Assembly (NCBI GenBank): GCA_963402885.1
Contig: OY727096.1
Span: 2,914,001-2,978,000 of the forward strand
Direction: 5' to 3'
Source: Antedon bifida
Taxonomy: Eukaryota; Echinodermata; Crinoidea; Comatulida; Antedonidae
Length of the DNA stretch: 64,000 nt
Below are positions 4,050-63,915 of the stretch, one piece after another; the first letter of the stretch is position 1; every line of letters starts with the position of its first letter. The notes beneath the pieces were generated by a model. The model ran no database searches. It was not told the DNA's origin and worked only from the letters and a program-made list of their open reading frames with translations. The position numbers and the translations under genes are program-made.

Positions 4050-44234
<40,185 letters not shown>

Positions 44235-47936: not shown

Positions 47937-48009
47937 ATGATGTTTATAACGACGATCCAACTTTGGCTCTGTTTTCTTGTGGGATTACTTAAATGTTCGA
48001 CTGCTATAA
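47937..48009 (+). CDS. exon 1: signal peptide
   Basis: Codes 24 residues, almost all signal peptide, ending in CSTAI. Donor GTATGT at 48010. The downstream one of two adjacent ATGs (47940) could also start it. Confidence 0.75.
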
Positions 48010-51000
48010 GTATGTATATTTTGTTTTTATTGTTTACTATATAAATGAATGAAGGGACACCACGAGGGTGAATATTATACTAGGTTAAGCCTTGTCTACA
48101 CTATCAACTTTGTGACAAAAAAATGTGATGTGCCCATATATGGACATGATGATGTCATATCACTACCATATTTGGGACGATCACTACCATATTTGTGCAC
48201 ATCACACTTTTTTGTCAAACTAGTTTGATAGTGTAGACAGGGCTTAAAGGCCCTATATCAAGTCAATACGAGTTTAAATAAATATTATGCGTTTAGATAC
48301 GGCCCATCTTTATGATGTTGGCTGTCCCATAATCTTAATATCAGAACGTCATTAACTGTTTAAGCTTTATTCAATAGATGTAACGAGTGAATTTGTGATT
48401 GTTAGTAGTGTAACAACACCAGGGATATACTTCTCATTGTTCGATTATGAAAATGTTGAATTCGAGGTTGATTTTGAACCACTACCCGCTATGACAGAAC
48501 ATTTCTCCCCAAAATCCGTCGACTTTCATCGACGAATGTGTGCTGTATATTGGGTAGAGGAATTTACTAGTAGTATATGGCGCTACTTCTTAGCAGAGGA
48601 GACCTCCGAGGTCGTGATTTCTGAAGAAGAATCCATACCAGGAGTTTCAAGAAGTAAGTTAATTATTTCATTCATTTAGATTTAAATTTAATTTAGTTTT
48701 TTAAATATTGAATGTAATTGACTAATGAGTTAAGCATTGCACTTTTATTTACAAACACCCACAGTACGGTTCTTGTATTCATACAAAATACTACTAAATG
48801 TATTGTACTGTCTATTGTAAAATTGCACAATACAGAGAGCTAGGTTGGAATTTGTTGGATTTGTGTAATAATTACAAAGATATGCAACTATGCAAGTTAT
48901 GTCTAAATCTTATAAACTAGGTTTGAACAAACCAGTTGATAACTTGATTTGTTCTACATAACGCCTACCCGTATTAACTTTTCATATGATATAAACTTCA
49001 TCTGCTTTCACAATTTTATTTTGTTCCAAACTTTCATATCATTCCACATTTTCATCATCTAATTTCACATTTCCATCACTTAACTTTAAACATCATATTC
49101 CAAACTTTCATCCCCTTCCACGTTTTCATCCCATTCCACATTTTCTTCCCATTCCACATTTTCATCCCATTCCACATTTTCATCCAATTCCATATTTTCA
49201 TCCCATTTCACCCTTTCATATCATTCCACCCTTTCTTCCCATTCCACACTTTCTTCCCATTCCACATTTTCATACAATTTAACCCTTCCATATTATTTTA
49301 CACTTTCATCCCATTCCATACTTTCCTCCCATTCCCCATTTTCTTCCCATTTCACACTTTTCTTCCAATCCACATTTTCATCCCACTTCACCCTTTCATC
49401 CCATTTCATACGTTCATCTCATTTACAATTTCATAACTATCCATGAATTCGATTTCACATTTCCATTCCATAGATATGTCACTTTCTGTTGATGTGCGTA
49501 CTAATCAATTATTCTGGACTGATTCTGCTTCCCAAACAATTGAGACAGCTGATTTAAACGGTGAAAATCGAGAGGTTCTTGTTGAAGGTGTAATCCAACC
49601 GTTGTCCATTGCAGTAAACTCAGATGAAAAGTACGTTTAAAGATCTGTCCACACTATCAAACTGATAAAAAATGTGACGATGATGTCCATAACTACTATA
49701 TTTGGGCACATCACACTTTTTTTGTCAAACTAGCTTGACAGTGTAAACAGAGCTTAGCATAAGACAACCATGGATGTTACTTTATTAATGACCATTTATA
49801 ATTATTTCAACTAACGATACGCCTGAAAATGTGGTGCATCTTTTCTAGGGAAACTTTGATGGGTTCCGAATAGAGGTTCCGTCCTAGTTTGAATCTACAA
49901 AATCCACAAATAAATTGTCAGCAGCTGATATATTCATTCAGAAACAGAGGGTCGATTGATGAAAAGAGTGTACTTTCACTAGTTTTTGTGTGTTTTATAG
50001 TCTAATAGTTTGGTCGACAGGAGGGACTGCCCCGTCTATTCAACAGGCCGCCTTTAATGGTAGTAGCGTGATTACATTGCTAGAAAATGGATTAATACAA
50101 CCGATATCAGTATTCATAGCACCTAAACGTAAGTAATACCCGGATTTTAATTTCTGTTATTCTATATACCACAACAAACTTCGACAGAACCGTGACAAAG
50201 TGGGCCAGAATTAATTCACGAGAATTGGCCTTGAATTCCATTGTTACTTGGACGTAAACACTTGTAAAACTCTTTGTAGTTTGCACCATTTCATTTTGTA
50301 GTATGAATAGAATAATTAAAGTGAAAAATTTGGTTTAATAAAGCGTACTTGTTTGGGTACCTAAATGTCCATCTGCCACGTGATTGGGGTAAAAGTCAGA
50401 AATCAATACAGCTCTTTATTAGTAATATAGTATTACATTCGCATGGCGTCTTTTATAAAGTACAGAAATGATCATCCGTAGATCTTCTGTACTCCACATA
50501 TACAGTACTGTAGGTACAGTATAGGCCTACTGTATGTGCACATAAGGAAATAGTATGTCCACGTATAAACATGTTGCGTCTGCTATTGGTTAGGTTCATC
50601 TTATGGCCATGATACAGAATCACATGTGAAACATATGTTACACTGTATTATAGAATTTGCCTATGATTCTGTACCGTCATTACAGTACCGAGAATCGGCT
50701 AAAATAACGAACCGTTAATGTAATCCTTGCATTCGCGTGCGTACGTAAAATAATAGAGAACCTTAACCAATATTTGATTATGGTTAGTGAAAAAGAAAAG
50801 AACAGTCCATATTTTTGGGTAAAGCTAATTCTATCGTTTTGTTCTTGATAGCTGATCGAATTTACTGGGGAGACACAGTCGCTCGGATGATATCATATTT
50901 GGAACTCTCGGATGGTAGCAGAGTTGACGTCATAACTGATGTACCAGTTGTCAGTTTGCAGATCTATAAACAGAACCTATACTGGACTCAATTAAATGAA

Positions 51001-54000
51001 GATAGAATTTTTCGTGCTGACAAACACACTGGAGAAATCATTTATACATATATTCTACCGGGGAACTTCATGCCTTATTCTCTGTTCCTATCAGTAACTA
51101 AAGGTAGGCTATTTCAGTATTATAACAGACAATTTATTCATTTATGAATGTTGTCCGTAATTGTATTATTTGTTAGTATTCGTGATTATGTATTACATAT
51201 TCCGTTTTTTTACCTACGCTATTCAAATGTAAGAATTTATACTACTGCTCATATTCAAATTACAGGAAATAACCAAGAAGAAGAGACCACTATTTCAACT
51301 GAAATATTCACTATAGAAGAACATACTACTAAAACAGAAATCGCTAATGCAACAATTGAAACTACACAAGATCCAACAACACAAAATCGTACTGATGGGA
51401 TCACTAAAGCAACAACTCAATTATTAACTGAAAAATCAACTACACAAGAAACAACTACTGTTACAACGGCCACAGAAGCAACAACTGAATTATTAGCTGA
51501 AAAATCAACTGCACAAAATACAACTACTGAGGTACAGACCACTGAGGCAACAACTGAATTATTAGCTGAAAAATCAACTGCACAAAATCCAACCACTGAT
51601 GTCGAGACCACTAAAGCAACAACTGAATTATTAACTGAAAAATCAACAGCACAAAATCCAACCACTGATGTCGAGACAACCAAGGCAACAACTGAATTAT
51701 TAGCTGAAAAACCAACTGCACAAAATCCAACCACTGATGTCGAGACCACTAAAGCAACAACTGAACTATTAACTGAAAAATCAACAGCACAAAATCCAAC
51801 TACTGATGTCGAGGCCACTAAAGCAACAACTGAATTATTAGCTGAAAAATCAACTGCACAAAATCCAACAACTGATGTCGATACTACGAAAGCAACAACT
51901 GAATTATTAGCTGAAAAATCAACTGCACAACATCCAACCACTGAGGTAGAGACAACTAAGGCAACAACTGAATTGTTAGCTGAAAAATCAACTGCACAAA
52001 ATCCAACCACTGATTTCGAGACAACTAAGGCAACAACTGAATTATTAACTGAAAAATCAACAGCACAAAATCCAACCACTGAGGTAGAGACAACTAAGGC
52101 AACAACTGAATTGTTAGCTGAAAAATCAACTGCACAAAATCCAACCACTGATGTCGAGACCACTAAAGCAACAACTGAATTATTAGCTGAAAAATCAACT
52201 GCACAAAATCCAACAACTGATGTTGAGACCACTAAAGCAACAACTGAATTATTAGCTGAAAAAACAACTGCACAAAATCCAACTACTGAGGTAGAGACCA
52301 CTAAAGCAACAACTGAATTACTAGCTAAAAAATCAACTGCACAAAATCCAACCACTGATGTCGAGACCACTGAGCCAACAACTGAATTATTAGCTTAAAA
52401 AACAACTGCACAAAATCCAACTACTGAGGTAGAGACCACTAAAGCAACAACTGAATTACTAGCTGAAAAATCAACTGCACAAAATCCAACCACTGATGTC
52501 GATACCACTGAGCCAACAACTGAATTATTAACTGAAAAATCAACTGCACAAAATCCAACTACTGATGTTGAGACCGCTAAAACAACAACTGAATTATTAG
52601 CTGAAAAATCAACTGCACAAAATCCAACTACTGAGGTAGAGATAACTAAGGCAACAACTGAATTTTTAGCTGAAAAATCAACTGCACAAAATCCAACCAC
52701 TGAGGTAGCGACCACTAAAGCAACAACTGAATTATTAGCTGAAAAAACAACTGCACAAAATCCAACTACTGAGGTAGAGACCACAAAAGCAACAACTGAA
52801 TTATTAGTTGAAAAGTCAACTGCACAAAATCCAACCACTGATGTCGAGACCACTAAAGCAACAACTGAATTATTAGCTGAAAATTCAACTACACAAAATC
52901 CAACTACTGAGGTAGAGACCACTAAAGCAACAACTGAATTATTAGCTGAAAAATCAACTGCACAAAATCCAACTACTGAGGTAGAGACAACTAAGGCAAC
53001 AACTGAATTATTACCTGAAAAATCAACAGCACAAAATCCAACAACTGATGTCGAGACCACTAAAGAAATAACTGAATTTTTAGCTGAAAAATCAACTGCA
53101 CAAAATCCAACCACTGAGGTAGCGACCACTAAAGCAACAACTGAATTATTAGCTGAAAAATCAACTGCACAAAATCCAACAACAGATGTCGAGACCACTA
53201 AAGAAATAACTGAATTTTTAGCTGAAAAATCAACTGCACAAAATCCAACCACTGAGGTAGCGACCACTAAAGCAACAACTGAATTATTAGCTGAAAAATC
53301 AACTGCACAAAATCCAACAACTGATGTCGAGACCACTAAAGAAATAACTGAATTTTTAGCTGAAAAATCAACTGCACAAAATCCAACCACTGAGGTAGCG
53401 ACCACTAAAGCAACAACTGAATTATTAGCTGAAAAATCAACTGCACAAAATCCAACAACTGATGTCGATACTACGAAAGCAACAACAATTGAAGGAACGT
53501 TCACTGATTTAAAGACTGAAGAATCGCCAATAGTTGCAACAACAATCGAAGGAATGTTCACTGATTTAAACACTGAAGAATCGCCAATAGATGCAACAAC
53601 AATTGAAAGAACGTTCACTGATTTAAACACTGAAGAATCGCCAATAGACGCAACAACATTCGAAGGAACGTTCAGTGATTTAAACACTGAAGAATCGCCA
53701 ATAGATGCAACAACAATTGAAGGAACGTTCACTGATTTAAACACTGAAGAATCGCCCACAGATGCGACAACAATTGAAGGGACGTTCACTGACTTAAACA
53801 CTGAAGAATCGCCAATAGATCCAACAACAATTGAAGGAACATTCACTGATTTAAACACTGAAGAATCGCCCACAAATGTAACAACAATTAAAGGAACGTT
53901 CACTGATTTAAACACTGAAGAATCGCCAATAGATACAACAACAATTGAAGGAACGTTCACTGATTTAAAGACCGATGAATCGCCAATAGATACAACAACA

Positions 54001-57000
54001 ATTGAAGGAACGCTCACTGATTTAAACACTGAAGAATTGCCCACAAATGTAACAACAATTGAAGGAACGTTCACTGATTTAAACACTGAAGAATCGCCAA
54101 TAGATGCAACAACAATTGAAGGAACGTTCACTGATTTAAACACTGAAGAATTGCCAAGAGGTGTAACAACAATTGAAGGAACGTTCACTGATTTAAACAC
54201 TGAAGAATCGTCAATAGATGCAACAACAATTGAAGGAACTTTCACTGATTTAAACACTAAAAAATCGCCATTAGACGCAACAACCATTGAAGGAACGTTT
54301 ACTGATTTAAACACTGAAGAATTGCCAATAGATGCAACAACAATTGATGGAACGTTCACTGATTTAAACACTGAAGAATCGCCAATAGATGCAACAACAA
54401 TTGGTGGAACGTTCACTGATTTAAACACTAAAGAATCGCCAATAGATACAACAACAATTGAAGGAACGTTCACTGATTTAAACACTGAAGAATCGCCAAT
54501 AGATGCAACAACAATTGGTGGAACATTCACTGATTTAAACACTAAAGAATCGCCAATAGATACAACAACAATTGAAGGAACGTTCACTGATTTAAACACT
54601 GAAGAATTGCCAATAGATGCAACAACAATTGATGGAACGTTCACTGATTTAAACACTGAAGAATCGCCAATAGATGCAACAACAATTGGTGGAACGTTCA
54701 CTGATTTAAACACTGAAGAATCGCCAAGAGGTGTAACAACAATTGAAGGAACGTTCACTGATTTAAACACTGAAGAATTGCCAATAGATGCAACAACAAT
54801 TGATGGAACGTTCACTGATTTAAACACTGAAGAATCGCCAATAGATGCAACAACAATTGGTGGAACATTCACTGATTTAAACACTAAAGAATCGCCAATA
54901 GATACAACAACAATTGAAGGAACGTTCACTGATTTAAACACTAAAGAATTGCCAATAGATGCAACAACAATTGGTGGAACATTCACTGATTTAAACACTA
55001 AAGAATCGCCAATAGATGCAACAACAATTGAAAGAACGTTCACTGATATAAATACTGAAGAATTGCCAATAGACGCAACAACATTCGAAGGAACGTTCAC
55101 TGATTTAAACACTGAAGAATCGCCAATAGATGCAACAACAATTGAAGGAACGTTCACTGATTTAAACACTGAAGAATCGCCCACAGATGCGACAACAATT
55201 GAAGGGTCGTTCACTGACTTAAACACTGAAGAATCGCCAATAGATGCGACAACAATTGAAGGAACGTTCACTGATTTAAACACTGAAGAATCGCCCACAG
55301 ATGTAACAACAATTGAAGGAACGTTCACTGATTTAAACACTGAAGAATCGCCAATAGATGCAACAACAATTGAAGGAACGTTCACTGATTTAAACACTGA
55401 CGAATCGCCAATAGATGCGACAACAATTGAAGGAACGTTTACTGATTTAAACACTGAAGAATCGCCAATAGATGCAACAACAATTGAAGGAACGTTCACT
55501 GATTTAAAGACTGAAGAATCGCCAATAGATGCGACAACAATTGAAGGAACGTTTACTGATTTAAACACTGAAGAATCGCCAATAGATGCAACAACAATTG
55601 AAAGAACGTTCACTGATTTAAATACTGAAGAATCGCCCACAGATGCAACAACAATTGAAGGAACGTTCACTGATTTAAACACTGAAGAATCGCCAATAGA
55701 TGCAACAACAATTGATGGAACATTTACTGATTTAAACACTGAAGAATCGCCAATAGATCCAACAACAATTGGTGGCACATTCACTGATTTAAACACTGAC
55801 GAATCGCCAATAGATGCAACAACAATTGAAAGAACGTTCACTGATTTAAACACTGAAGATTCACCAATAGATGCAACAACAATTGAAGGAACATTCACTG
55901 ATTTAAAGACTGAAGAATCGCCAATAGATGCAACAACAATTGAAGGAACGTTCACTGATTTAAACACTGAAGAATCGCCAATAGATGCAACAACAATTGA
56001 AGGAACTTTCACTGATTTAAACACTGAAGAATCGCCAATAGATGCAACAACAATTGAAGGAACTTTCACTGATTTAAACACTGAAGAATCGCCAATTGAT
56101 GCAACAACATTCAAAGGAACAATCACTGATTTAAAGACTGACGAATCGCCAATAGATGCAACAACATTTGAAGGAACATTCACTGATTTAAACACTGAAG
56201 AATCGCCCACAGGAATAACAGAAATTGAAGGAAGGCTTACATTTTCAAAAACCGAAGAACCATACACAGAGGCCACCAAAAGTGAAGTCGAGTTTACTGA
56301 ATTACTAAACACCGAAGAACCATTCACAGAGGCAACAGAAATTGAAGGAGAGTTCACTGAATTATTAAACACCGAAGAACCATTCACAGAGGCAACAGAA
56401 ATTGAAGGAGAGTTTACTGAATTATTAAACACCGAAGAACCATTTACAGAGGCAACAGAAATTGAAGGAGAGTTCACTGAATTACTAAACACTGAAGAAC
56501 CATTTACAGAGCCAACAGAAATTGAAGGAAAGTTCACTGAACTATTAAACACTGAAGAACCATTCACAAAGGCAACAGAGATTGAAGGCGAGTTCACTGA
56601 ATTACTAAACACCGAAGAACCATTTACAGATGCAACAGAAATTGAAGGGCAGTTCACTGAATTATTAAACACCGAAGAACCATTTACAGAGCCAACAGAA
56701 ATTGAAGGAGAGTTTACTGAATTACTAAACACCGAAGAACCATTTACAGAGGCGACAGAAATTGAAGGCGAGTTCACTGAATTACTAAACACCGAAGAAC
56801 CATTTACAGAGGCGACAGAAATTGAAGCAGAGTTCACTGAGTTACTAAACACCGAAGAACCATTTACAGAGGCAACAGAAATTAAAGGAGAGTTAACTGA
56901 ATTATTAAACACTGAAGAACCATTTACAGAGGCAACAGAAATTGAAGGAGAGTTCACTGAATTAATAAACACCGAAGAACCATTTACAGAGGCAACAGAA

Positions 57001-60000
57001 ATTGAAGGAGAGTTCACTGAATTAATAAACACCGAAGAACCATTCACAGAGGCAACAGAAATTAAAGGAGAGTTCACTGAATTACTAAACACCGAAGAAC
57101 CATTTACAGAGGCAACAGAAATTGAAGGAGAGTTCACTGAATTACTAAACACCGAAGAACCATTTACAGAGACAACAGAAATTGAAGGAGAATTCACTGA
57201 ATTGTTAAACACCGAAGAACCATTTACAGAGGCAACAGAAATTGAAGGAGAGTTCACTGAATTAATAAACACCGAAGAACCATTCACAGAGGCAACAGAA
57301 ATTAAAGGAGAGTTCACTGAATTACTAAACACCGAAGAACCATTTACAGAGGCAACAGAAATTGAAGGAGAGTTCACTGAATTGTTAAACACCGAAGAAC
57401 CATTTACAGAGGCAACAGAAATTGAAGGAGAGTTCACTGAATTACTGAACACCGAAGAACCATTTACAGAGGCAACAGAAATTGAAGGACAGTTCACTGA
57501 ATTACTAAACACTAAAGAACCATTCACAGAGGCAACAGAGATTGAAGGAGAGTTAACTGAATTATTAAACACTGAAGAACCATTTACAGAGGCGACAGAA
57601 ATTGAAGGAGAGTTCACTGAATTACTAAACACCGAAGAACCATTTACAGAGGCAACAGAAATTGAAGGAGAGTTTACTGAATTATTAAACACCGAAGAAC
57701 CATTTACAGAGCCAACAGAAATTGAAGGAAAGTTCACTGAACTAATAAACACTGAAGAACCATTCACAGAGGCAACAGAGATTGAAGGCGAGTTCACTGA
57801 ATTACTAAACACCGAAGAACCATTCACAGAGGCAACAGAAATTGAAGGACAGTTCACTGAATTACTAAACACTAAAGAACCATTCACAGAGGCAACAGAG
57901 ATTGAAGGAGAGTTAACTGAATTATTTAACACTGAAGAACCATTTACAGAGGCGACAGAAATTGAAGGAGAGTTCACTGAATTACTAAACACCGAAGAAC
58001 CATTTACAGAGGCAACAGAAATTGAAGGAGAGTTCACTGAATTACTAAACACCGAAGAACCATTTACAGAGGCAACAGAAATTGAAGGAAAGTTCACTGA
58101 ACTATTAAACACTGAAGAACCATTTACAGAGCCAACAGAAATTGAAGGAGAGTTTACTGAATTACTAAACACTGAAGAACCATTTACAGAGCCAACAGAA
58201 ATTGAAGGAAAGTTCACTGAACTATTAAACACTGAAGAACCATTCACAAAGGCAACAGAGATTGAAGGCGAGTTCACTGAATTACTAAACACCGAAGAAC
58301 CATTCACAGGGGCAACAGAGATTGAAGGGGAGTTCACTGAATTACTAAACACTAAAGAACCATTTACAGAGGCAACAGAAATCGAGGGAGAGTTCACTAA
58401 ATTATTAAACACCGAAGAACCATTTACAGAGGCAACAGAAATTGAAGGAGAATTCACTGAATTATTAAACACCGAAGAACCATTCACAGAGGCAACAGAA
58501 AATAAAGGAGAGTTCACTGAATTATTAAACACCGAAGAACCATTTACAGAGGCAACAGAAATTGAAGGAGAGTTCACTGAATTACTGAACACCGAAGAAC
58601 CATTTACAGAGGCAACAGAAATTGAAGGACAGTTCACTGAATTACTAAACACTAAAGAACCATTCACAGAGGCAACAGAGATTGAAGGAGAGTTAACTGA
58701 ATTATTAAACACTGAAGAACCATTTACAGAGGCGACAGAAATTGAAGGAGAGTTCACTGAATTACTAAACACCGAAGAACCATTTACAGAGGCAACAGAA
58801 ATTGAAGGAGAGTTTACTGAATTATTAAACACCGAAGAACCATTTACAGAGCCAACAGAAATTGAAGGAAAGTTCACTGAACTAATAAACACTGAAGAAC
58901 CATTCACAGAGGCAACAGAGATTGAAGGCGAGTTCACTGAATTACTAAACACCGAAGAACCATTCACAGAGGCAACAGAAATTGAAGGACAGTTCACTGA
59001 ATTACTAAACACTAAAGAACCATTCACAGAGGCAACAGAGATTGAAGGAGAGTTAACTGAATTATTTAACACTGAAGAACCATTTACAGAGGCGACAGAA
59101 ATTGAAGGAGAGTTCACTGAATTACTAAACACCGAAGAACCATTTACAGAGGCAACAGAAATTGAAGGAGAGTTCACTGAATTACTAAACACCGAAGAAC
59201 CATTTACAGAGGCAACAGAAATTGAAGGAAAGTTCACTGAACTATTAAACACTGAAGAACCATTTACAGAGCCAACAGAAATTGAAGGAGAGTTTACTGA
59301 ATTACTAAACACTGAAGAACCATTTACAGAGCCAACAGAAATTGAAGGAAAGTTCACTGAACTATTAAACACTGAAGAACCATTCACAAAGGCAACAGAG
59401 ATTGAAGGCGAGTTCACTGAATTACTAAACACCGAAGAACCATTCACAGGGGCAACAGAGATTGAAGGGGAGTTCACTGAATTACTAAACACTAAAGAAC
59501 CATTTACAGAGGCAACAGAAATCGAGGGAGAGTTCACTAAATTATTAAACACCGAAGAACCATTTACAGAGGCAACAGAAATTGAAGGAGAATTCACTGA
59601 ATTATTAAACACCGAAGAACCATTCACAGAGGCAACAGAAAATAAAGGAGAGTTCACTGAATTATTAAACACCGAAGAACCATTTACAGAGGCAACAGAA
59701 ATTGAAGCAGAGTTCACTGAACTAATAAACACCGAAGAACCATTTACAGAGGCAACAGAAATTGAAGGAGAGTTTACTGAATTACTAAACACCGAAGAAC
59801 CATTTACAGATGCAACAGAAATTGAAGGAAAGTTCACTGAACTATTAAACACCGAAGAACCATTCACAGAAGTGACAGAAATTGAAGGAGAGTTCACTGA
59901 ATTACTAAACACCGAAGAACTATTTACAGATGCAACCGAAATTGAAGGAGAGTTCACTGAACTATTAAACACTGAAGAACCATTCACAGAGGCAACAGAA

Positions 60001-63000
60001 ATTGAAGAAGAGTTCACTGAATTATTAAACACCGAAGAACCATTCACAGAAGTGACAGAAATTGATAGAGAGTTCACTGAATTACTAAACACCGAAGAAC
60101 CATTCACAGAGGCAACAGAGATTGAAGGCGAGTTCACTGAATTACTAAACACCGAGGAACCATTTACAGAGGCAACAGAAATTGAAGAAGAGTTCACTGA
60201 ATTACTAAACACCGAAGAACCATTTACAGATGCAACCGAAATTGAAGGAGAGTTCACTGAACTATTAAACACCGAAGAACCATTCACAGAGGCAACAGAA
60301 ATTGAAGAAGAGTTCACTGAAGTATTAAACACTGAAGAACCATTCACAGAGGCAACAGAAATTGAAGAAGAGTTCACTGAAGTATTAAACACTGAAGAAC
60401 CATTTACAGAGGCAACAGAAATTGAAGGAGAGTTCACTGAATTATTAAACACCGAAGAACCATTTACAGAGGCAACAGAAATTGAAGGAGAGTTCACTGA
60501 ATTATTAAACACCGAAGAACCATTTACAGAGGCAACAGAAATTGAAGAAGAGTTTACTGAATTACTAAACACCGAAGAACCATTTACAGAGCCAACAGAA
60601 ATTGAAGGAGAGTTCACTGAATTATTAAACACCGAAGAACCATTTACAGAGGCAACAGAAATTGAAGAAGAGTTTACTGAATTACTAAACACCGAAGAAC
60701 CATTTACAGAGGCAACAGAGATTGAAGGAGAGTTCACTGAATTACTAAACACCGAAGAACCATTCACAGAGGCGACAGAAATTGAAGGAGAGTTCACTGA
60801 ATTACTAAACACCGAAGAACCATTCCCAGAGCTTACTGCTACAACATCCACCTCTGACCAGCCGTTAACTGAATTATCTACATCTGCAGCATCAACATCT
60901 GAAATGTTTACTGAAGTATCAATAACAACAGACTCATCCACAACAGAGGCAGCCACAACTGAAGTATCAACAACTGAAGCGTCAACAACAGAAGCGTCAA
61001 CGACAGAAGCAGCGAAAAAAGAACCATCAACGACAGAAGCGTCAACGACAGAAGCAGCGAAAAAAGAACCATCAACGACAGAACCATCAACGACAGAAGC
61101 ACCAACGACAGACACATTAACAACTGAAGTATCAACAACAGAAACATTAACAACATCAGCGGCCACAACTGAAGCTTCAACAACATATGCATCATCGACA
61201 ATGGCACCAACGACAGAAGCACCAACGACAGAAGCACCAACGACAGAAGCACCAACGACAGAAGCAGCGACGACAGAAGCACCAACGACTGAAGCACCAA
61301 CGACAGAAGCACCAACAACTGAATTATCAACAACTGAAATATTAACAACAGCAGCGGCCACAACTGAAGCATCAACAACAGATGCATCATCGACAAAGGC
61401 ACCAACGACAGAAGCATCAACAACTAAATCAACAACAGAAGCTGCAACAACTGAAGTATCAACAACAAAAGCAGCAACAACTGAAGTATCAACAACAAAA
61501 GCAGCAACAACTGAAGTATTAACGACACTGATATCAACAACACTGCCTGCAGGTAGACCTAATTTGTAATATATTTAACCACTACAAAAACCACAAAAAA
61601 TGTAACTTTTTCTAACAGTAGTATTTATTACTAATAATATATATTTTCAGATATCGATCCTCCTGCCGTGTCGTGTCCAAACAATGTATCCACCATTTTA
61701 AATGAGGGTGCTGGAATGACGGTTGTAAACTATACAGCAGCTGCAACTGACAATGTTGGTATTACCTCTGAAAGTTTTGATATACCTTCGGGTTCAATGT
61801 TTAGCTTCGGTGAAACCATTGTAACTTTTACAGCTTTTGATGAAGCTGGAAATGTAGGGAATTGCTCATTCACTGTCATAGTAGTTGGTAAGTTTAACTT
61901 TATCAAATGTCATTTGCTTGTTTTTATTTATTACACTTGAATTGAAGTTCAATTGTTCGACAGTTGTACCATATAAATAATTTATTAAATATAAACTGCT
62001 TGCCTTATTATTATATTTACACTTATGATTAATTAAAGTGTGTATTCCTTTTAGTAGCAATCTTTCAATAGTTTCATATACAGTATTTGTGTAATGTTGA
62101 CTTAATAATTATTATTTAAATAACGTATCTGCAGTGTGGATATAGTTGTTTCCATTTCTTCCAATCTGTCAACAGTTAATGCATATACTGTATTTCTTTA
62201 CTGTATAAGTTACTTATTCTATGCATAATTTATTGATACAATACAAAAGAAAATATCTTTTATCAAATTTCCAGTAATGTATATTACAGTGTTATTGTCC
62301 TGCTTTTTATTTAAGACACTGGACTCGCTAAGATAATTTCATTATAAAAAGACATTATTGAACTTTTCGTTTAATACACTGATAACTTAATTACGAAAAT
62401 AATGACAATATTACATTATTGCGGTTTCAATTTTTCCATTTAAGACAACGAGGCTCCTATGGTAACTTGCCCCGGTAATATAACCACTAATTTAACGGAT
62501 GGCGCCAAAACAGTTGTAATAAACTACATGGCAACTGCAACTGACAACGTAGAAGTTGCCTCAGAAACCTTTAGCGTTCCTGCTGGTTCCATGTTTGCTG
62601 TTGGCGAAACTGAGGTCACTTTTACGGCAATCGACGTTGCTGGTAACACAAAAGACTGCACATTTACGATCACAGTCCAAGGTAAGTAGATGGAATATTT
62701 GATTAACATTTGATTAATTTATTTGATTAATTAGTATCAATCATGAATAGGTATATACCTCATGTGTAGGTATAAAAATAGTAACTCCATGGTGTTAATA
62801 ACGCGAGTTAGAATCTTTAATTCAATATTTCAATATCTAATCATGACCCCAATGATTCCTTTCTCTTATTTACGTTTTCTTGTTTTTGTATTGTATTACT
62901 GTTTCTTATTGTTTATTATTCTTGTATTATTTGTCTTCCATTATTGAATAAATGTTATTGAAATTGAATTGAAATTGATCTTATTATTATGAGGTATTTA

Positions 63001-63915
63001 TCATTCAATTGAATCCATTTTGATAGATTTTGAAGATCCAACGATCACATGTCCTCTATTTCCTGTCGTTGAAACCGATCCCAGAAGCCCAGAAGCCATT
63101 GTCGTCTGGGTTATCCAAGTCGAAGATAACTCTGGTGACGTAACTACATCGTCATCTCATTCGCCGGGTGATAGCTTTCCAATTGGACGTACAACTGTAC
63201 TATATGTTGCCACAGACTCCTCGGGAAATGTTGCAGAATGTTCCTTTGATTTAAATGTCGAAGGTGAGAACACGCAGGTCTTTTTGTGAACAAATAACAA
63301 CAATTATAAATTCATTTGAGTGATCCCCAGTGGAATGTCTGCCGTCGTATATATTATTAGAAAGATTGACAAAACGTAAAGCACTTTCTACACTATCAAA
63401 CTTTATGTGACAAAAAATGTGATTTGTCCATACATGGATACGATGACGTCATAACATTACCATATTTGGGGATAGCACTACCATATTTGGTCAAACTAGT
63501 TTGTAGACAGAGCTTAACACTCAAAACCTACAGTATTGGTAAAAATCAATATGTCTCTTTTCTGAAACAAAACCAATAGTAATTTTTTTATTCAGATTAT
63601 TAAAAAAAACATAAACAACGGATTCATGCAATCTTTTTACTGGTAAACAGTTAAAATTCATATTTAAATATTAATGATTGTTTTCAGATAAAGAAATCCC
63701 AAATCTTGTATGCCCTAGTAACGTTGTTAGCGACATTGACAGAAGCGTTACCTGGGAAGTTCCAGAACCTGACGATAACTCAGGAGAAGAAGTTACCTTA
63801 TCTGCTTCTGCATCTCCTGACGATGAATGGGAAGTTGGCACATATTCAGTTACATATACTGCTACTGATATATATGAGAATACTGCAACATGTTCTTTTA
63901 TGGTTTCTGTTATTG
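47937..63915 (+). CDS. secreted YWTD-propeller / mucin-repeat / HYR protein, 3' end beyond window
   Basis: Ten exons in consistent phase: 47937-48009, 48378-48653, 49474-49630, 50001-50128, 50852-51103, 51266-61552, 61651-61887, 62445-62681, 63027-63263, 63688-63915. The start gives a clean signal peptide (MMFITTIQLWLCFLVGLL). Five YWTD-like motifs follow (VYWVE, LFWTD, IVWST, IYWGD, LYWTQ), suggesting one LDLR-B-type beta-propeller. Next is a giant Thr/Glu-rich repeat region likely to be O-glycosylated, then HYR domains, immunoglobulin-like modules of extracellular proteins. The gene would encode over 4,000 residues, but TAA at 52396-52398 would stop it after residue 672. Function unknown: a matrix, mucus or adhesion role fits the domains. 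A close relative cannot be named. Confidence 0.85.
48085..48246 (-). mobile_element. MITE family A, - orientation
   Basis: TTAAGCCTTGTCTACACTAT on the left and GATAGTGTAGACAGGGCTTA on the right, in intron 1 of the YWTD/HYR gene. Confidence 0.85.
48378..48653 (+). CDS. exon 2: first YWTD-like blade
   Basis: Residues 25-116, acceptor TTCAATAG, donor GTAAGT. Contains VDFHRRMCAVYWVEEF, a YWTD-type strand, preceded by an acidic stretch. Confidence 0.8.
49017..49440. repeat. pyrimidine-rich minisatellite, about 18-bp unit
   Basis: Over 20 imperfect units of CATTTTCATCCCATTCCA type (also CTTCCCATTCCACATTTT), strongly strand-biased for C and T, ending just before exon 3 and running into its polypyrimidine tract. 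Confidence 0.85.
49474..49630 (+). CDS. exon 3: second YWTD blade
   Basis: Residues 117-168. LSVDVRTNQLFWTDSASQTI followed by ADLNGENREVL and IQPLSIAV is a textbook LDLR class B repeat. Acceptor TCCATAG, donor GTACGT. A MITE fragment starts about 10 bp later. Confidence 0.92.
49640..49756 (-). mobile_element. MITE family A, shortened copy next to a donor
   Basis: AGATCTGTCCACACTATC on the left and GACAGTGTAAACAGAGCTTA on the right, with much of the core deleted. Starts about 10 bp after the exon 3 boundary. Confidence 0.8.
50001..50128 (+). CDS. exon 4: third YWTD-like blade
   Basis: Residues 169-211 with LIVWSTGG, AAFNGSSVITLLE and IQPISVFIAP. The YWTD core is degenerate. Acceptor TTTTATAG, donor GTAAGT. 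Confidence 0.88.
50129..50851 (+). other. intron 4 of the YWTD/HYR gene
   Basis: AT-rich with some TACAGTACTGTA-type short palindromes near 50500-50540. No coding sequence or transposon recognised. Confidence 0.5.
50852..51103 (+). CDS. exon 5: fourth and fifth YWTD blades
   Basis: Residues 212-295. PDRIYWGDTVARMISYLEL and QNLYWTQLNEDRIFRAD are two LDLR-B-like repeats. Acceptor TTGATAG, donor GTAGGC. Confidence 0.9.
51266..61552 (+). CDS. exon 6: giant mucin-like repeat exon with one internal stop
   Basis: A 10,287-bp exon (residues 296-3724 of the uninterrupted frame), acceptor AAATTACAG, donor GTAGAC after 61552, phase 1 in and out. It consists of Thr/Glu-rich tandem repeats and lacks Cys. 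The frame is open from the acceptor to the donor except for TAA at 52396-52398 in the 15th unit of the first array, where sister units have GAA. Repeats of this sort with high Thr are typical mucin-type O-glycosylation regions. Confidence 0.85.
51409..53478 (+). repeat. coding array A: 30 units of 69 bp
   Basis: 23-residue unit containing TTELLAEKSTAQNPTT followed by DVETTKA or EVETTKA. Unit starts fall exactly every 69 bp from 51409. The first unit is the most divergent. Within it a 138-bp dimer is repeated three times at about 53040-53460. Confidence 0.95.
53488..56223 (+). repeat. coding array B: 48 units of 57 bp
   Basis: 19-residue unit IEGTFTDLNTEESPIDATT with variants at a few positions (E/G/D at the second residue, S/L before P, IDA/TDA/TNV/RGV). 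Units start every 57 bp from 53488 to 56167. Confidence 0.95.
56224..60840 (+). repeat. coding array C: one 57-bp bridge unit then 76 units of 60 bp
   Basis: 20-residue unit IEGEFTELLNTEEPFTEATE. The unit is alignable with array B but one codon longer. The bridge unit at 56224-56280 is still 57 bp yet already has the TEEPYTEAT half. It contains a perfect 1,140-bp tandem duplication (57421-58560 and 58561-59700). Confidence 0.95.
60841..61552 (+). repeat. coding array D: short TTEAS/TTEAP repeats
   Basis: About 230 residues dominated by five-residue units TTEAS, TTEAP, TTEVS with occasional AAKKEPS inserts, a typical mucin-like Thr/Ser/Pro region just before the HYR exons. Confidence 0.9.
61651..61887 (+). 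CDS. exon 7: HYR domain 1
   Basis: 237 bp, phase 1 to 1. DIDPPAVSCPNNVS opens the domain; TATDNVG-like, GSMFSFGETIVTFTAFDEAG and NCSFTVIV follow, with the two HYR cysteines. Acceptor ATTTTCAG, donor GTAAGT. Confidence 0.94.
61888..62444 (+). other. intron 7 of the YWTD/HYR gene
   Basis: AT-rich intron between HYR 1 and HYR 2. No repeat or coding signal recognised. Confidence 0.5.
62445..62681 (+). CDS. exon 8: HYR domain 2
   Basis: 237 bp, phase 1 to 1: APMVTCPGNITTNLTDGA, ATATDNVEVASETF, VGETEVTFTAIDVAGNT, DCTFTITV. Close in sequence to HYR 1, suggesting exon duplication. Acceptor TTTAAG, donor GTAAGT. Confidence 0.94.
62780..62985 (+). mobile_element. LINE 3'-tail fragment
   Basis: Ends TGAATAAATGTTATTGAAAT followed by TGAATTGAAATTG, a short (ATTGAA)-like microsatellite tail typical of CR1/L2-type LINEs and similar to the tail at 43020-43045. 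No protein-coding part remains. Confidence 0.55.
63027..63263 (+). CDS. exon 9: HYR domain 3
   Basis: 237 bp, phase 1 to 1: DPTITCPLFPVVETD, VEDNSGDVTTSSSHSPGDSF, GRTTVLYVATDSSGNVAECS. More diverged from HYR 1 and 2. Acceptor TTGATAG, donor GTGAGA. Confidence 0.93.
63378..63516 (-). mobile_element. MITE family A, diverged copy
   Basis: AAAGCACTTTCTACACTATC on the left; the right end GTTTGTAGACAGAGCTTA has lost ATAGT. In the intron before HYR 4. Confidence 0.8.
63688..63915 (+). CDS. exon 10: HYR domain 4 (last exon visible)
   Basis: 228 bp, phase 1 to 1: PNLVCPSNVVSDID, PDDNSGEEVTLSASASPDDE, VGTYSVTYTATDIYENTATC. Donor GTACGT after 63915, so the gene continues past the window. Confidence 0.92.

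Follow-up and report, generated by a model that had tools for sequence, protein, structure and literature searches.

Structure of the gene

A window of 64,000 nucleotides (nt) from the crinoid Antedon bifida (GenBank assembly GCA_963402885.1, contig OY727096.1, positions 2,914,001 to 2,978,000 of the forward strand) was analysed here, and positions below are those of the window. Its right-hand part holds, on the plus strand, a probably single gene in which a YWTD propeller part, one very large exon of tandem repeats and a series of HYR domains follow one another. We were able to rebuild ten exons of this gene through their splice borders, which show GT at all ten donors and AG at all nine acceptors; the phases after exons 1-10 (1, 1, 2, 1, 1, 1, 1, 1, 1 and 1) are consistent, as an earlier note on this DNA had stated. 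The coding sequence (CDS) inside the window is 12,109 nt long and carries exactly one stop, a TAA at 52396-52398 within exon 6. A donor follows position 63915, and the gene therefore extends past 64000, beyond the window, so that its domain order is incomplete at the C-terminal end.

Exon 1 (47940..48009) contains the start codon and, judged by eye, a signal peptide, MFITTIQLWLCFLVGLLKCSTA. The propeller part occupies the following four exons, with YWTD-like motifs VYWVEE in exon 2 (48378..48653), LFWTDS in exon 3 (49474..49630), LIVWST in exon 4 (50001..50128), and both IYWGDT and LYWTQL in exon 5 (50852..51103). These five motifs lie at residues 80, 128, 169, 214 and 253, spaced by 39-48 residues. 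The Pfam scan, which covered exons 1-5, exon 6 downstream of the stop and exons 7-10 and left out 51266-52395, found Ldl_recept_b in exons 1-5 (E 9.3e-13, 48.9 bits against a cut-off of 21) as one stretch, residues 126-162 in exon 3. Compared with solved structures, the propeller part matches LRP2, LRP4, LRP6, LRP8, LDLR and VLDLR, and nidogen weakly. Its top single-domain matches are LRP4 (71.7 bits) and LDLR (70 bits); the LRP4 and LRP6 propeller matches cover mature residues 48-252, and the LRP4 alignment (48-250) is a single run.

The usual YWTD propeller has six blades. Since the mature propeller part, at 272 residues, has the full length of a six-bladed domain, it is probably a six-bladed propeller of the usual kind. 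The five blades of the earlier note thus correspond to a count of motifs, all five of which are present, while the number of blades derived from it is probably too low.

Downstream of the repeat exon, exons 7 (61651..61887), 8 (62445..62681), 9 (63027..63263) and 10 (63688..63915) encode HYR domains 1 to 4, one per exon and each of 76-79 amino acids (aa). Pfam recognises HYR (PF02494) in these exons with E 9.2e-58 and 193 bits against a cut-off of 21.7, in four stretches, and a Bact_surface_Ig-like match (30.3 bits, cut-off 27) overlaps the fourth domain. Against solved structures the HYR part gave two matches, with E values of 0.23 and 0.29. The domain search that the earlier note had proposed, run here on the parts of the protein, thus places Ldl_recept_b before the repeat exon and HYR after it.

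The repeat exon and its coding signal

The repeat exon, exon 6, spans 51266..61552 exactly as first described, with 10,287 nt, 3,429 codons and phase 1 at both ends. It contains four arrays. Array A (51412..53478) consists of about 30 units of 23 aa (69 nt) with the consensus TTELLAEKSTAQNPTTDVETTKA, and array B (53479..56271) of 49 units of 19 aa (57 nt) with the consensus ATTIEGTFTDLNTEESPID, the last of which looks intermediate to array C. Array C (56272..60828) has about 76 units of 20 aa (60 nt), consensus ATEIEGEFTELLNTEEPFTE; by eye, its unit resembles that of array B plus one codon. Array D (60829..61552) is made of short repeats of the TTEAP/TTEVS type.

The exon had been called Thr/Glu-rich, and its Thr (25.6%) and Glu (22.3%) contents agree. 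It has no Cys, an isoelectric point of about 4.05, and 894 acidic against 115 basic residues. Serine plus threonine (S+T) makes up 35, 32, 20 and 49% of arrays A, B, C and D, respectively. Hydrophobic residues account for 25% of array C, where the positions I, F, LL and F of the unit are mostly kept. Units of array C average 95% identity to their consensus, and the array includes an exact direct repeat of 1,183 bp (57385..59707, plus strand), in which 57385-58567 equals 58525-59707 at a shift of 1,140 bp, or 19 units. This is either a very recent duplication or a duplication made in the assembly.

Several Pfam families turned up within the repeats. DUF7710, Methyltransf_25 and DUF3737 reached 45.9, 40.6 and 27.5 bits, above their whole-protein cut-offs, with no single stretch that passes; YusW and Polyketide_cyc stayed under the cut-off, and Extensin_1 gave one stretch with E 0.03, far under it. 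We take all of these as effects of repetition and composition.

The earlier note mentions no stop in the repeat exon. We found, however, that it is interrupted at codon 672, in unit 15 of array A, by the TAA at 52396..52398 (plus strand), which is also visible as the break between two open reading frames (ORFs), 51148-52398 and 52399-61569. The stop falls on codon 7 of the array A unit, which reads GAA in 27 of the 29 copies; of the other two, one has AAA and one TAA. Flanking the changed base, 20 nt on its left and 68 nt on its right agree exactly with the stretch 138 bp upstream, and because of this match the stop-making change appears younger than the local duplication.

Whether the repeats code was addressed through their variants, using 151 whole units (29 of array A, 48 of B and 74 of C) and excluding the first 48 codons of the exon, border and partial units, and array D. 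Of 131 distinct variants, 50 are silent where 34.0 would be expected (p 0.0005), and a stop arises in one where 4.5 would be (p 0.0275); these p values are rough, since duplications copy variants, which are therefore not fully independent. Third codon positions hold 61, 51 and 53% of the variant cells in arrays A, B and C. An 18-bp tandem array, ATTCCACACTTTCATCCC, lies in intron 2 (49097-49434, about 19 copies) and is open in two plus-strand frames. Used as a control, its three column classes hold 17, 18 and 13 of 48 variant cells, a maximum of 38%.

The repeat exon also carries an antisense ORF of 3,059 codons (52395-61574, minus strand), and the base change behind the sense stop terminates this ORF as well. 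Its presence fits the geometry of the codons, as the two frames share their wobble positions. No silent excess was found in the other four frames.

Readings of the locus and its surroundings

We propose, at a probability of roughly 0.6, that this is one mosaic gene for a secreted or membrane-anchored protein, built as propeller, acidic repeat stalk and HYR domains, and that the TAA is not its fixed state. If transcribed and translated in full, the gene would yield a signal peptide followed by a single LRP-type YWTD propeller, which may serve as a ligand-binding head. The very long acidic Thr/Glu repeat stretch, encoded on one expandable exon, would act as a stalk or spacer, possibly O-glycosylated, and the Ig-like HYR modules could mediate matrix or cell adhesion. 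The repeat exon may grow and shrink by unequal exchange in multiples of three, staying in frame, as the central exons of mucins do. The TAA at 52396 would then most likely be either a wrong base in the assembled sequence or a null allele of recent origin.

That propeller, repeats and HYR domains form a single gene is probable, and the argument comes from spacing. Introns 5 and 6 measure only 162 and 98 nt, neither contains AATAAA or ATTAAA, and no ATG precedes exon 7 in its open stretch, which begins at 61638; two separate genes are thus unlikely. The earlier note had reached the same conclusion from the agreement of phases, which says little alone, because phase 1 is very common among extracellular modules. 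Reading on past the 61552 donor does lead to a stop 17 nt beyond, at 61567-61569, and this donor is of moderate strength (score 2.2, the 97.7th percentile of 958 GT sites), so that one could imagine two transcription units or alternative 3' ends, with a propeller-repeat protein ending there and a separate HYR gene following. Among the 5 GT sites in 61300-61570, however, that at 61553 alone leaves phase 1. Given matching phases across a 98-nt gap without either signal, and with exon 7 preceded by no ATG in its open stretch, we consider such an arrangement highly improbable.

The cause of the stop weighs more. As written, the product has 671 residues, ending in array A and short of the HYR domains, and a genuine, fixed stop would mean either a secreted protein of this length, made of the propeller and 377 repeat residues, or a young pseudogene; in both cases translation would no longer reach the HYR part. 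A cryptic intron removing the stop is not favoured: no donor scoring above 3 lies upstream of the stop within the exon, and none of the 58 AGs further down array A has more than 11 pyrimidines among the 20 nt before it. This test is soft, as scores under 3 are also found for four of the gene's own ten donors, and 11 pyrimidines for one of its nine acceptors. Against a fixed stop stand a CDS of 12,109 nt with no further stop or frameshift, every splice border kept, the silent excess in the arrays, and a codon that differs by a single base from the GAA present in 27 of the 29 copies. With no second stop or frameshift in the CDS and a silent excess in the repeats, an old pseudogene seems less likely than an assembly error at this base or a null allele of recent date, and a fixed stop, while a real possibility, is the doubtful option.

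Besides the truncated product, several observations weigh against the full-length mosaic gene. Only one of the five YWTD-like motifs was detected by Pfam, and four of the ten donors are weak, with scores under 3. The antisense frame shows a silent excess like that of the sense frame (51 against 36.3 expected) and is open as well, so that the strand is set by the flanking exons and not by array statistics. Openness as proof of coding was indeed rejected: the antisense frame 52395-61574 and the two plus-strand frames of the intronic 18-bp array are open too, and since each of the three main periods is a multiple of three, openness is weak evidence. The trap is a general one: where the repeat unit is divisible by three, a long ORF says little about coding, and a single base can end such an ORF unnoticed. 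Finally, taking mucin-like composition as S+T of 40% and proline of 5% over 100 residues, 155 of 3,328 hundred-residue windows reach it and all of these start in the last ~270 residues; the bulk of the repeat stretch therefore does not appear mucin-like in composition.

There is another view of how the stretch works, one compatible with the mosaic gene, in which the repeats, above all arrays B and C, would be a folded acidic beta-stack (a solenoid-like rod) and not a disordered glycosylated stalk. For eight units of array C, AlphaFold2 predicted an all-beta model with strands of 13-17 residues every 20 residues, with a best mean predicted local distance difference test score (pLDDT) of 89.9 and a predicted template modelling score (pTM) of 0.79, and the kept hydrophobic positions in a unit that is 25% hydrophobic point the same way. 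The five array C models, however, fall from a mean pLDDT of 89.9 to 60.2, and those of six array A units from 67.4 to 25.2; the modelling covered arrays A and C and left out B. A Foldseek search of the array C model against the PDB returned 123 matches up to E 10, none of which reached E 0.001 (best 4.3e-3), and 33% Asp+Glu would stack like charges. Because near-perfect repeats often give false beta-stacks in AlphaFold2, we keep the folded rod as a rival only, and an unlikely one. Its fullest form, a giant and so far undescribed extracellular protein whose LRP-type propeller and HYR adhesive modules would be spaced by an acidic beta-stack rod of about 125 similar 19-20-residue units (B and C) that changes length by whole units, appears quite improbable.

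Upstream of the mosaic gene lies a gene for a HECW-type HECT E3 ubiquitin ligase (about 3981-44234, plus strand), with HECW_N, HECW1_helix and two HECT matches. An open stretch ending in ...TFGID at 44234 is, by eye, its apparent last exon, 3.7 kb before the start codon of the repeat gene. Apparently within its introns are reverse transcriptase (RVT_1) fragments at 37193-38173, 38112-38921 and 40826-41272 (plus strand), probably from non-LTR elements. Shortly upstream of these fragments stand two 143-bp tandem copies, 97% matching (35381-35666). A 21-bp unit, CATATCACTACCATATTTGGG, recurs at many sites of the window, for example at 31248-31332, 43962-44011 and 48159-48205; at about 48083-48248 it stands between near-inverted ends, which by eye resembles a small transposable element. 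One repeat of the window, searched against genome_contigs, gave 0 matches.

Comparison with LDLR relatives, mucins and HYR proteins

Like LRP4, LRP6 and LDLR, and like the propeller of nidogen, the gene has a YWTD propeller, here a single one of the LRP4/LRP6/LDLR type. Members of the LDLR/LRP family have an EGF module packed after the propeller. Here, in contrast, Thr/Glu repeats follow the propeller directly: the repeat exon begins after an intron of 162 nt, exons 5 and 6 are without Cys, and Pfam gave no EGF match beside the propeller. The family also has LDLR-A modules, a transmembrane segment and an NPxY tail; Pfam gave no LDLR-A match in exons 1-5 or 7-10, and the C-terminal end of the gene lies outside the window.

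With gel-forming and membrane mucins the gene shares Thr-rich tandem repeats on one very large exon, such as MUC2 exon 30 and the MUC5B central exon (PMC1552070, PMC6269512). For MUC2 exon 30, PMC6269512 reports a length of 8,793 bp and 98 units, each of 69 nt, and a MUC5B central exon of 10.7 kb is cited in its reference list; array A has the same unit length of 69 nt, which may be coincidence. Mucin repeat arrays are described there as difficult to sequence and variable in length (PMC1552070, PMC6269512). The repeats lie here on one exon of 10,287 nt, subject to the in-frame stop, and a large single repeat exon is of a known kind, ordinary for mucin-type genes. Unlike mucins, the gene is Glu-rich, keeps hydrophobic positions and has S+T of 20-35% in arrays A-C. 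The Pfam scan gave no VWD or SEA match in exons 1-5, in the part of exon 6 downstream of the stop or in exons 7-10; 51266-52395 lay outside the scan, and the C-terminal part lies beyond the window.

Tandem HYR domains are also a feature of hyalin, an HYR protein. They occur likewise in the sea star footprint protein Sfp5, which is reported to have 3 hyalin repeats and is part of a secreted adhesive (PMC9382459). The gene described here differs from Sfp5 in the propeller and the long repeat stretch that precede HYR, whereas Sfp5 has, according to the same source, a FAMeT domain besides its hyalin repeats (PMC9382459). A coral protein with five YWTD domains appears in the available part of PMC7853314, where HYR is named in a different figure legend and not placed in one protein with them. 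The order YWTD, repeats, HYR was not found among the matches listed from the open-access literature searched, and it is plausible that this order is new, a probable new combination conditional on the stop. If the protein is made in full length, this would be a clear case of domain shuffling, with an LRP-type binding head and HYR adhesion modules joined to a mucin-like stalk, a combination with a bearing on animal matrices, mucus and adhesives.

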